The notes below the pieces were generated by a model that was given only the letters and a program-made list of their open reading frames with translations, made no database searches and had not been told where the DNA came from. A program made the translations under genes and the position numbers. Below are positions 45,423 to 48,661 of a DNA stretch of 64,000 bases, piece by piece; the stretch's first letter is position 1, and every line of letters begins with the position of its first letter. The DNA comes from Pontibacter litorisediminis. Its GTDB lineage: Bacteria > Bacteroidota > Bacteroidia > Cytophagales > Hymenobacteraceae. The DNA is taken from positions 62,001-126,000 of the forward strand of contig NZ_JARDUA010000001.1 of NCBI RefSeq assembly GCF_029360645.1, read 5' to 3'.

Positions 45423-45616
45423 CTGATTATTTACCTGATAACACGATTTGCCTGAAATAGTTTTAGCACAAACCCCAAAGCTTTCTGGCGGGTGCTTTAG
45501 TAACAACCATTAGCTATTACCGATTATAGATATAACTTAACGTCAAATCTGCAGCTGCCTGTTTGGGCCTCAGGGGCTTCCTGTATGGTCATCGTTGCTG
45601 CTAACCCTGTAACTCA

Positions 45617-46084
45617 ATGGAAATACTAACACAAGAACTCGAAACAAAAAAGCGGCTGCTACAGGAAAGTAACAAGCTGCTAAACGCGCAGATAAAGGCG
45701 GCTAAAGACGCTATGGATGAGGCTCAGGAAAGCGCGAACGATCATCAGGGGGCAATGGAGGACAAGTTCGAGTCTTTCCGGGAGAATTGCCAGATACAGC
45801 GAGATATGTATGCGCGCCAGCTGGATGAGCTTATAACCACGCAAAGCGTGCTGCGGCGTATTAACGCCACCAAAATGAACCAGGACGTTTCGCTAGGTGC
45901 CGTGGTGCACACGGAGTTGCAGAATTACTTTATTGGCGTGAGTCTTGGGGAGATAAAGCTGGATGGGGAGTCTTACTATGCCATTTCAGGTCTGTCGCCG
46001 CTTTGTAAGGCAATGATGGGTAAAACAGCAGGAGAAACATTTGTTTTTAGAGATAAAACCTATAAGATATTGCAAGTATTTTAG
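45617..46084 (+). CDS. GreA/GreB-family protein with N-terminal coiled coil
   Basis: A 155-aa protein whose N-terminal half (about 1-85) is a heptad-like coiled coil and whose C-terminal half (about 92-155) matches the GreA/GreB FKBP-like domain: GAVVHTELQNYFIGVSLG, ISGLSPLCKAMMGKTAGETF. Gre factors enter the RNA polymerase secondary channel and stimulate cleavage of backtracked RNA through acidic residues at the coiled-coil tip. Here the tip area reads SANDHQGAMEDKFESFRE, so acidic residues exist, but the arrangement differs from canonical GreA. It could be a cleavage factor or a competing secondary-channel regulator. Confidence 0.75.
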   Translation: MEILTQELETKKRLLQESNKLLNAQIKAAKDAMDEAQESANDHQGAMEDKFESFRENCQIQRDMYARQLDELITTQSVLRRINATKMNQDVSLGAVVHTELQNYFIGVSLGEIKLDGESYYAISGLSPLCKAMMGKTAGETFVFRDKTYKILQVF

Positions 46085-46160
46085 AGTCAGCAGCTTTTTG
46101 TTGAAATATTCAAAACCTACAACGCCAATTCACAGTTAATAGGCTGGTAAAGGGTTAATA

Positions 46161-46195
46161 AAAAGGGTTAGCTTTCGTGGCTAACCCTTTTGCTT
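46161..46195 (+). terminator. Terminator of the GreA-like gene
   Basis: AAAAGGGTTAGC (46161-46172) pairs with GCTAACCCTTTT (46180-46191), with T-rich sequence on both outer sides. Confidence 0.82.
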
Positions 46196-46211
46196 TTCTT
46201 CCTTTTTCGGT

Positions 46212-46643
46212 CTATTGAACCCGGGTCCAGTTCTGCGATCTGCCAATCAGCGAGATGCCGATGTACCCTTTCACCTCCATTTTGTCCTTGCCGGTCATTT
46301 TCATGTAGCAGCTATAGGTCTTGCCGCTCTCCGGGTCGTAAATCGTGCCGTCGTCCCATTTGTTTCCTCCCTCGTGTTCAAAGCCCTCCATAAATCGCAT
46401 GCCTACAAGCGGCCTGTTGCGGAGCTTCTTATCAGGGTTGTTATCGTCCAGCTTTGGTTTACCATTGCGCAGAGGCTCCTTAAGGGATACAATCTTGCCA
46501 CAGAGTTTGTCACCGCACTTGTAGATCTCAAACTTCGCCTTGCCATCTTCGTTCGTCCATACCCCGATAGGGGAAAGGCTCTGGGCCCAGGCGACAGTGG
46601 AGAACATCATGAGCAGAACCAGGGTGATGAGGTGCTTTTTCAT
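46212..46643 (-). CDS. DUF2147 secreted protein
   Basis: A 143-aa exported protein with a signal peptide (about 1-20, ending VAWAQ) followed by the DUF2147 pattern: SPIGVWTNEDGKAKFEIYKCGDKLCGKIV, LVGMRFMEGFEHEGGNKWDDGTIYDPESGKTY and a final MEVKGYIGISLIGRSQNWTRV. Family members are small periplasmic beta-barrel-like proteins of unknown function, common in Bacteroidota and Proteobacteria. Two cysteines in CGDKLC could form a disulfide. It is convergent with the GreA-like gene. Confidence 0.9.
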   Translation of the reverse strand: MKKHLITLVLLMMFSTVAWAQSLSPIGVWTNEDGKAKFEIYKCGDKLCGKIVSLKEPLRNGKPKLDDNNPDKKLRNRPLVGMRFMEGFEHEGGNKWDDGTIYDPESGKTYSCYMKMTGKDKMEVKGYIGISLIGRSQNWTRVQ

Positions 46644-46896
46644 CTGAATTTTACGATTAGTTGTTTGTTTGCAAGGTAATATATGAAAAAAAGTTAGGTT
46701 TTGACTTCAGCCCCGCACAAAAATGGCCGATTTTTTTAATACTTTTTTAGAAGGTTAAAGCGCTAACTGCGCAGCAAGGTAAGCGGTAGTTTTAGTGGAC
46801 TGTATTGTTCCTCAGTAGGTTGTGGAGGAGGCGGGCTTTAGAGTAGCAATGAAGGGTAAGGGAACGTGAAAAAGGGGACTTATAAAGAAGGAAACA
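46644..46896. other. Intergenic region before the candidate RNA gene
   Basis: About 250 bp upstream of the ncRNA promoter and of the divergent DUF2147 gene. No gene or hairpin is evident. The DUF2147 promoter should be here on the minus strand. Confidence 0.4.
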
Positions 46897-46927
46897 TTGT
46901 GAACTTTTAACCGTTTTTTTATCTTTA
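46897..46927 (+). promoter_or_regulatory. Promoter of the candidate ncRNA
   Basis: TTG at 46897-46899 and TATCTTTA at 46920-46927 are separated by 20 nt. The expected start of transcription, near 46934, is where the closing helix of the RNA begins. Confidence 0.6.
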
Positions 46928-47031
46928 TAAACAAGTGAGTGGCGGGTGCCACGGCCTTTAAGCCAAAAGTTCGTTATAATAACGCAGCGGCGGCTTAAGG
47001 TTTATGTCGGACTAAAGAGAAAGGAGGTGCT

Positions 47032-47100
47032 ATGTCTAATCCATCGGTCGTCTTAGTAAGCCAAGGTAATAATGCTCACGTAAAAGGTGAGCTGGCTTAG
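47032..47100 (+). other. Possible 22-codon peptide frame inside the candidate RNA
   Basis: ATG at 47032 follows an unusually strong Shine-Dalgarno-like AAAGGAGGTG by two nucleotides after the motif (four after the GGAGG core). The frame encodes MSNPSVVLVSQGNNAHVKGE and two more residues. In this phylum such sites are not generally used, and the frame overlaps helix 3, so translation is doubtful. Confidence 0.25.
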
Positions 47101-47208
47101 TAAGCAGTACGAGCTACTGCTTGCGCAGATAGCAAATTACCTTTGGTCTTCTTAAGAGATGGTAAACTGAAAAACAGGGCGCCGCTTACTGAGAAATTGA
47201 AGGATTCT

Positions 47209-47258
47209 GAAACACCTGGTGTGTCTTGACGGGCCACATCAGGTGTTTCTTTTTTTTC
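47209..47258 (+). terminator. Terminator of the candidate ncRNA
   Basis: GAAACACCTG (47209-47218) pairs with CAGGTGTTTC (47240-47249) and the stem extends inward by five more pairs. Nine T-rich bases follow. Confidence 0.9.
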
Positions 47259-47384
47259 AGCAGTTCGGCTGGGGCGGCAGTCCTGTTACCCCACGCATGC
47301 GCTCTGCTCGCCTGCGCCGATTAGGGGCACCCCTGTCACTTTTGGAATTTCTTTCTTCTCTGCCCTCTTTCCCAACTTGCCTGT

Positions 47385-47759
47385 TTACAAGTCATCCTTA
47401 TAGATGCTGTTGTTGCTCTTGCGTCGCTCCTGCACGAAGGTGCCGACATAAAAAGCAACAGCTACAAAACAGCTAAAGGCCATCAGGAGCAGTAGGATAT
47501 AGTGCAGGTTCCAGGTAAACGTCTCCGGGTCAAGCTGCCAGATCAGAAGCAGGCCCGTTAGCAGCGTAAGCGCAGACACAGTATGGAATACAAACCGGTT
47601 ATGCTTGCGCAGATGGTAGGTGCAGGCCAGGAATAGTATACCAAAGAATGGCGCAGCCAGCATCACCGGCGGCCTGGCGGGGTTGCTGAAGTATAGGATG
47701 AGGCCTGCTGTGATAAGCAGCAGTGCGTTAAGGGTATTAACGATGTAGGGGTGTACCAT
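47385..47759 (-). CDS. Small four-TM membrane protein
   Basis: A 124-aa protein with four hydrophobic segments (about 8-25, 31-48, 56-76 and 84-107), short loops, and a basic C-terminus QERRKSNNSIYKDDL. It resembles small multi-pass proteins of unknown function; I do not recognise a family. It is on the same strand as the NlpC/P60 gene upstream with an 83-nt gap, so the two could share a transcript. It ends about 125 nt beyond the terminator of the candidate RNA, convergent to it. Confidence 0.7.
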   Translation of the reverse strand: MVHPYIVNTLNALLLITAGLILYFSNPARPPVMLAAPFFGILFLACTYHLRKHNRFVFHTVSALTLLTGLLLIWQLDPETFTWNLHYILLLLMAFSCFVAVAFYVGTFVQERRKSNNSIYKDDL

Positions 47760-47842
47760 AGCTTATGTTGTTCGCATTGTAAGGCCCTAAGGGCCAGCCA
47801 TGGTCCGTTGTACGTGAAAACGCAAAAGAGTTATAGGTAAGC

Positions 47843-48436
47843 CTACAGCACGCGCCGCACCTGCAGAAAACGCCCTTCGTACCCGCTGCCCTCCACTTGG
47901 CTGATCTTAACACCGCCGTTTGAGGAGGAATGCACGAACTCAATCGTGTCGCCGGGCTGGGAGATAACAATTCCTACATGGCCTGGCTCTCGCACCTGGG
48001 GATTGGTGCCGGTAAAGATAACCAGGTCACCGGGCTGGGCCTCCTGTCGTGTCACCTGCTCGCCTTCATCGGCCTGCATGCGGGAAGAGTGGGGCAACTG
48101 AACGCCATACTCCTCATACACGTGGGTTATGAAGCCAGAGCAGTCGAAGCCTTCCGGGGTTTCGCCGGCCCAAACATAGGGTGTGCCGATGAGGGTGAGG
48201 GCATAGGAAATCATGTCCTGGCTTTCAGTTGCACCAGCGGCACGAACAGCTGACAACCCAGTATGGGTTTGTTCCGGAGCAGAAGTACGATCCTGCTGTT
48301 GCGGTGCAGAGGTAGCCAAGGCAGGGGGAAACTCTGACTTGTTTTCTCTGGAACGGGCGAAGTGCTGTGGCATGAACACCAGTAAAAGCACTAACAGCAA
48401 GACTGGGGAAAGTATAAGCAGCAAGTTTTTTTTCAT
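47843..48436 (-). CDS. NlpC/P60-family peptidoglycan peptidase
   Basis: A 197-aa exported cysteine peptidase that cleaves peptide crosslinks of the cell wall. An N-terminal signal or membrane anchor (about 4-22) leads to a low-complexity linker (about 30-70) and the NlpC/P60 domain (about 75-197). The catalytic Cys99 is in GFDCSGFITHVY, and His153 in EPGHVGIVI; IGTPYVWAG is typical of the fold. The downstream membrane protein may be cotranscribed. Substrate specificity cannot be read from the sequence. Confidence 0.92.
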   Translation of the reverse strand: MKKNLLLILSPVLLLVLLLVFMPQHFARSRENKSEFPPALATSAPQQQDRTSAPEQTHTGLSAVRAAGATESQDMISYALTLIGTPYVWAGETPEGFDCSGFITHVYEEYGVQLPHSSRMQADEGEQVTRQEAQPGDLVIFTGTNPQVREPGHVGIVISQPGDTIEFVHSSSNGGVKISQVEGSGYEGRFLQVRRVL

Positions 48437-48661
48437 AGCGTTGGTTTATGGGTTGCAGCCTAGTAAAAGAAAAATTCATGCCACTCTTGTTAAAAGTGGG
48501 CACCTTTGATAGGCTCAGTTACAGAAACATATCCAGTAATGCTAAAAGTTCTACTTGCTGCCTATTCGCTTTGATAGGTAAAAACCGTGCCTTTACAAAA
48601 TTTAGTGTCTGGAGAAGGCAAAGAAAAGGTATGGCTATAGTGATATTTAATATTAAATACA

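Follow-up and report, generated by a model that had tools for sequence, protein, structure and literature searches.

Do positions 46934-47258 of the window, the whole analysed stretch of 64,000 nucleotides of Pontibacter litorisediminis DNA, encode an RNA of their own and, if so, of which kind? The original prediction had proposed a stand-alone structured, non-coding RNA with its own promoter and terminator. Comparison with related sequences supports the stand-alone structured RNA, and a conserved RNA gene at this position is almost certainly real.

Locus, distribution and known RNA classes

Upstream of the RNA the window contains a divergent DUF2147 gene. Downstream, on the opposite strand, a 124-aa gene without Pfam match is followed by an NlpC/P60 gene. 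The predicted transcription unit consists of the following elements.

46897..46927, + strand: promoter-like elements TTG(TGAAC)-N-TATCTTTA, from the sequence and matching motifs in related loci
46934..47257, + strand: predicted transcript of about 320 nt, from the conserved block and the positions of the predicted promoter and terminator
47210..47257, + strand: intrinsic terminator, from the sequence and a downstream T-run, present at 109 of 115 loci

Both proposed signals were present in the sequence, TTG-N20-TATCTTTA ending at 46927 and a hairpin with T-run at 47210-47257. The promoter-like motifs are kept in 59 of the 62 Pontibacter-type and Rufibacter-type loci and in 75 of all 115 loci. 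A sigma-70 scan of the locus found no site, which is expected because the organism belongs to the Bacteroidota. The 325-nt strand folds with -117 kcal/mol compared to a shuffle mean of -90.2 (z -5.0; better than 100 of 100 shuffles).

BLASTN with 46900-47260 against 200 genomes of the family gave 62 matches, 50 in the genus of the window (window included) and 12 in a second genus, the latter mainly across a 44-nt core. A covariance model of the core (R1) detected the RNA in 88 of 390 genomes of the order and a broader profile (R2) in 91, three of which were judged chance on reading (borderline matches rejected in this way: G406, G462 and G231). Comparison with related Hymenobacteraceae, suggested with the prediction, revealed the RNA in all 79 family genomes of this sample, accompanied by 9 genomes from three other families. 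Every family member sampled carries one strong copy. Clear matches in a phylum-wide sample of 395 genomes were confined to four genomes of the window's family; of the weak matches outside the family, four were read individually, among them G599, the next-best match (E 1.5e-4), which was left as probable chance.

A scan of named genomes with one exact pattern found 53 stretches. Within the family they belong to Pontibacter, Rufibacter, Adhaeribacter, Botryobacter and Sabulibacter, and in other families to Chryseolinea, Chryseosolibacter, Ohtaekwangia, Dawidia, Parachryseolinea, Pseudochryseolinea, Nafulsella, Rhodocytophaga and Xanthocytophaga. Metagenome-assembled genomes were labelled Cyclobacteriaceae, Flammeovirgaceae, Fulvivirgaceae, Marivirga and Cytophagales, and two were labelled Bacteroides and Chitinophaga.

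The RNA is accompanied by relatives of the DUF2147 gene in all 50 Pontibacter-type and all 12 Rufibacter-type loci, and by relatives of the NlpC/P60 gene in 49 and 12 of them, respectively. Relatives of the 124-aa gene occur in all 50 Pontibacter-type loci and in none of the 12 Rufibacter-type ones. At loci outside the family none of the three neighbours was found within the flanking DNA examined. A cis-acting leader or attenuator of a neighbouring gene, to which a short open reading frame (ORF) with alternative helices would fit, is extremely improbable and was rejected: a terminator follows the RNA, the downstream gene lies on the opposite strand in the window, and the orientation of the next downstream long ORF is mixed in 53 other loci (same strand 18, opposite 26, not found 9).

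An Rfam search of 45500-48500 yielded no match overlapping 46934-47258, neither at the gathering score nor up to E 5. As anticipated, RNase P, tmRNA, SRP and 6S RNA gave no covariance-model match above threshold at this locus. For tmRNA (RF00023) no match was obtained in 45500-48500 up to E 5, and the genome's own tmRNA is located on another contig (G000:C6:151745-152114, 118 bits). Nine homologous loci searched up to E 0.5 gave sub-threshold matches only, of which, judged by coordinates, mir-3937 in L115 (E 0.15) falls on the 3' terminator of the RNA and the remaining ones outside the RNA. Sub-threshold Rfam matches were also drawn by a convergent AT-rich inverted repeat at 46164-46196 (AAAAAGGGTTAGC...GCTAACCCTTTT) between a GreA/GreB-like ORF and the DUF2147 gene, which looks like a bidirectional terminator. 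A description of the RNA was not found in the literature at title or abstract level among the matches listed. The suggestion that the RNA might be undescribed agrees with the lack of an Rfam family above threshold, and the RNA is apparently undescribed.

The extended Shine-Dalgarno sequence and the short ORF

The most conserved part of the RNA is an extended Shine-Dalgarno (SD) sequence, GAGAAAGGAGGTG, together with a 22-codon ORF.

47019..47028, + strand: extended SD core AAAGGAGGTG, complementary, together with the GAG in front of it, to the 16S tail; GGAGG without variation among the 37 aligned sequences
47032..47100, + strand: 22-codon ORF MSNPSVVLVSQGNNAHVKGELA, then a second in-frame stop; frame kept across loci

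Pairing of the extended SD with the 16S tail was calculated as -20.1 kcal/mol in the window and -17.7 kcal/mol in two other types, using a generic Bacteroidia 16S tail in place of the host's own. A 16S search of the own assembly found nothing. In the window the ATG follows 4 nt after GGAGG. Among the 115 loci, which were chosen by a core pattern that partly builds in SD, start codon and spacing and leaves open frame and stop free, all 107 distinct ones keep the same frame open for 18-23 codons, starting with ATG in 91 and GTG in 16 cases, 4-6 nt after GGAGG. In frame +2 a stop is reached after one codon at every locus, in frame +1 after 8 codons (median). Five extra loci off the pattern were read separately; four possess the SD and the same frame at the start, and the fifth, L107, has a shortened SD. 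In L107 (about 1001-1104; genome 75% complete) the SD lacks three bases (AAAGAAAGGTGCTATG) and the start of the ORF is kept.

These observations contradict the designation as non-coding, and the ORF, which the original prediction had missed together with the real closing helix, is very probably translated. A non-coding structural RNA, in which the ORF would arise incidentally from conserved nucleotides and the SD-like stretch would bind something else, is highly unlikely. Conservation of the ORF start letter for letter, silent positions included, is consistent with such an RNA; however, frame and stop distance persist throughout the distinct loci despite divergence of the letters, the early closure of frame +1 is not matched in the ORF frame, and the length differences comprise an insertion of 3 nt in L034 and an additional codon in the Hymenobacter-type sequences.

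Alternatively, the locus may be a small-protein gene whose peptide is the product and whose RNA structure only controls synthesis. Frame, start and length are kept as expected for such a gene. In the Hymenobacter-type sequences, a label based on an inferred genus assignment, the third codon position is most variable (entropies 0.08, 0.10 and 0.29), and close pairs differ by 36 synonymous versus 33 other changes. In contrast, the codon positions are about equally variable in the Pontibacter-type set (0.30, 0.34, 0.38) and in other genera (0.87, 0.97, 0.89), and beyond MS[SN]P the peptides differ widely, e.g. in Nafulsella. Selection on the amino acids of the ORF thus looks weak in these comparisons, and we regard this explanation as distinctly unlikely.

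The perfect AAAGGAGGT with a start codon was counted at 11 genomic sites versus 6 in a reversed control. Several of these sites precede long ORFs (L209, L211, L212, L213 and L215 with 314, 143, 393, 167 and 144 aa, respectively), and the SD by itself does not distinguish the RNA. A few other genes of the genome may use SDs, judging from these sites.

Conserved fold of the RNA

Alignment of 37 Pontibacter-type sequences suggested the following structural elements.

46939..46952, + strand: P1, 5' hairpin GTGGC-GGGT-GCCAC; 100% paired in 37 sequences, 2 doubly changed (compensatory) pairs
46955..47000, + strand: P2, variable hairpin; 75.1% paired in an imperfect alignment, 7 of 9 pairs doubly changed
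47038..47042, + strand: P3a 5' strand, codons 3-4, partner 47202-47206; 96.8% paired, no double changes
47051..47061, + strand: P3b 5' strand, codons 7-10, partner 47184-47194; 96.8% paired, 3 doubly changed pairs
47065..47141, + strand: P4 (47065-47070/47136-47141); 80.0% paired, 2 doubly changed pairs
47074..47092, + strand: P5, hairpin within the ORF (47074-47079/47087-47092); 97.3% paired, 1 doubly changed pair
47102..47122, + strand: P6 (47102-47109/47115-47122), directly 3' of the stop codon; 97.0% paired, 2 doubly changed pairs
47146..47160, + strand: P7 (47146-47150/47156-47160); 92.4% paired, 1 doubly changed pair
47161..47183, + strand: P8 (47161-47163/47181-47183 and 47167-47169/47175-47177); 100% and 95.5% paired, 3 doubly changed pairs in total
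47184..47206, + strand: conserved 3' segment, the 3' strands of P3b (47184-47194) and P3a (47202-47206)

The nested structure scored, P1 and P3-P8 with 52 pairs on the 37 sequences, had 95.0% of cells paired compared to 92.6% in shuffles. It displayed 14 doubly changed pairs (6.7 +/- 1.3 in shuffles) and 59 doubly changed cells (14.1 in shuffles). The covariation score was 0.182 versus 0.137 in shuffles, which ignore relatedness, and at most 0.077 in slid versions, which respect it. Further pair types were not above shuffles (42 versus 40.4; reached by 128 of 500). The last pair of P4 fails in 33 of 35 sequences. By this comparison the fold is, like the ORF, well supported.

The helix between the ORF and the 3' end was recovered unprompted by RNAalifold. 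In an exchange test with 54 loci, some of them from the same genomes, native duplexes averaged -20.35 kcal/mol compared to -14.10 kcal/mol for exchanged ones, and shuffled 3' strands were weaker (mean z 3.9). P3a is present in most of these duplexes. The native 3' partner ranked among the top four for 24 of the 54 loci; elsewhere several foreign 3' strands fit better. Judged from these duplexes, the ORF/3' helix is kept far beyond Pontibacter. Predicted folds of 53 loci, calculated from stretches with some promoter DNA in them, contained the ORF/3' helix with at least 8 expected pairs in 37 loci and left the SD partly free (mean 0.37 unpaired). Hairpins resembling P1 with a similar loop were seen by eye in about 20 of the 53 loci outside the main alignment, the automated pick having taken another hairpin as longest in the others. 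The smallest version of the RNA, in Nafulsella, consists of SD, 18-codon ORF, ORF/3' helix and terminator.

The original prediction had closed the fold at the transcript start by pairing 46934-46944 with 47180-47190. The complementarity itself exists (11 bp, two G-U), yet a conserved closing helix was not found there: 73.0% of cells are paired versus 71.7% in shuffles of the 37 sequences, and 2 pairs are doubly changed versus 2.3. Doubly changed cells (13 versus 6.6; reached by 10 of 500 shuffles) and the covariation score (0.157 versus 0.135; reached by 6 of 500) lie slightly above shuffles. This helix was rejected, as its 5' strand sits in the 100%-paired hairpin 46939-46943/46948-46952 and its 3' strand overlaps the hairpin 47161-47183; instead, the ORF and the 3' end form the conserved closing helix. 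The other four proposed stems fared differently. Helix 47074-47079/47087-47092 is identical to P5, helix 47105-47109/47115-47119 is part of the longer P6, and 46955-46964/46992-47000 was roughly right, corresponding to P2. Helix 47052-47063/47093-47104 is 84.2% paired and above shuffles, but represents a weaker alternative that crosses the better ORF/3' helix, and 47137-47141/47161-47165 (83.2% paired) is not favoured.

A general internal anti-SD was discarded as predicted SD partners differ among lineages, in folds of stretches that start 130 nt 5' of the ORF and contain some promoter DNA. RNAs of the Chryseolinea group (L151, L158, L172, L195, L198 and relatives) contain a recurring ACCTC or GCCTC, often ACCTCGTG, at about +80 from the start codon and 3' of the stop codon, a possible pairing partner of the SD. 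In many genera (L158, L156, L185, L098, L099) the P2 region carries a CATAAGGTATTTG- or CCTAAGGTATTGGG-like motif about 50-100 nt 5' of the ORF, which is not evident in the sequence of the window.

Like tmRNA, the RNA has a short internal ORF enclosed by long-range pairing, and the two are similar in length. Unlike tmRNA, it has its own SD and start codon, and no tRNA-like domain was seen. Type I toxin mRNAs kept inactive by their own folding are another class to be considered; in hok-like mRNAs a short ORF is sequestered through base pairing with the 3' end. The pairing of the present ORF with the 3' end would be analogous, but the peptide looks, by eye, neither hydrophobic nor constant, each family genome sampled has one strong copy, and the neighbours are conserved within the family. 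A toxin mRNA is therefore very improbable.

Dual-function small RNAs, e.g. RNAIII, SgrS and Spot 42, share with the RNA a short SD-led ORF inside a structured stand-alone RNA, and the conserved short ORF found here lies in such an RNA. In contrast to these examples, the ORF itself forms the closing helix, and no Rfam match was obtained. As a dual-function regulator, the RNA would have its ORF translated and a freed segment (e.g. 47184-47206) would pair with target mRNAs, the SD only ensuring translation. Conserved segments on both sides of the ORF and the expected release of the 3' segment by translation argue for it. Against it, the 3' segment changes together with the ORF, and the one target tried, the rpsU mRNA, gave no pairing signal in 43 genomes (native -24.57 versus exchanged -24.06 kcal/mol). 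We consider such a function unlikely.

The hidden anti-SD and rpsU

According to PMC9976891, the 16S tail of Bacteroidia is sequestered by bS21, bS18 and bS6, and ribosomes without bS21 prefer mRNAs with extended SDs; in Flavobacterium johnsoniae, the rpsU mRNA with its extended SD is autoregulated by such ribosomes. As described there, rpsU stands out among extended-SD genes in about 80% of Flavobacteriales and almost all Sphingobacteriales, compared to only about 20% of Cytophagales, chiefly Cyclobacteriaceae (PMC9976891). Otherwise, low structure in the vicinity of the start tunes initiation in F. johnsoniae (PMC6847099). As the RNA combines an extended SD with a helix right after the start codon, rpsU upstream regions were compared.

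With a threshold of <= -13 kcal/mol against the generic 16S tail, which the SD of the RNA itself passes, an extended-SD rpsU was present in 0 of 26 and 1 of 27 RNA-bearing genomes (1 of 51 after removal of two double-counted ones), compared to 18 of 43 RNA-lacking genomes (f19 16 of 21, f11 2 of 9, elsewhere 0 of 13). The difference corresponds to a Fisher p of 8.8e-7 without correction for relatedness; the comparison covers rpsU, and the exclusion follows related lineages. The sole exception is the second rpsU copy of Nafulsella. Of the 43 RNA-lacking genomes, 25 have no extended-SD rpsU either. Run with permissive filters, a third profile (R3) detected both positive controls and, in 38 of the 43 RNA-lacking genomes, nothing beyond noise (best E 1.3e-3). 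This near-exclusion of the RNA and extended-SD rpsU in the genomes tested is suggestive. Nafulsella turpanensis (genome of L155) has two bS21 genes (L295 and L316), of which one has an extended SD (-21.9 kcal/mol) and the other does not (-4.2 kcal/mol), in addition to the smallest version of the RNA.

In common with the F. johnsoniae rpsU mRNA (PMC9976891), the RNA has an extended SD that is the complement of most of the 16S 3' tail; SDs are otherwise little used in this phylum. Unlike the rpsU mRNA, the RNA encodes no ribosomal protein, its 18-23-codon ORF is folded onto its own 3' end, and the SD is nearer to the start codon (4-6 nt after GGAGG). Its 22-codon ORF does not encode bS21, the gene for which lies elsewhere in the genome.

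The reading we favour, as a tentative one, is that of a small structured mRNA of part of the Cytophagales gated to ribosomes with an exposed anti-SD. A role of the RNA linked to bS21 and the anti-SD is possible, if on balance doubtful. In it, 5' hairpins are followed by the extended SD and the 18-23-codon ORF, of which codons 3-4 and about 7-10 pair with the 3' end just before the terminator. Ordinary ribosomes, with the anti-SD hidden by bS21, bS18 and bS6, would start poorly on an AUG with a stable helix directly after it. Ribosomes whose anti-SD is exposed, either without bS21 or before it has joined, might use the long SD as an anchor; by translating the short ORF they would then open the ORF/3' helix. 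The RNA could thereby act as a sensor of, or sink for, anti-SD-exposed 30S subunits and would perform in these lineages the role that the rpsU extended SD has elsewhere in the phylum. We infer transcription and translation of the RNA, selectivity for bS21-lacking ribosomes, unfolding, and an effect of the opened 3' end or the peptide. That a Cytophagales branch moved the gauge of bS21-lacking ribosomes from the rpsU mRNA to a dedicated RNA, and that travel along the ORF rather than the peptide flips this RNA by stripping the ORF off the 3' end, is conceivable but somewhat unlikely.

The RNA represents an additional family absent from Rfam 15. Bacteroidia ribosomes keep a conserved anti-SD that is hardly used, and autoregulation of rpsU is the worked-out use described in PMC9976891. 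If the favoured reading is true, the RNA would join the rpsU mRNA as a second RNA, itself widespread, with an SD just as long, in lineages whose rpsU is mostly without one, and the purpose of the kept anti-SD would become a testable question in cultivable bacteria.
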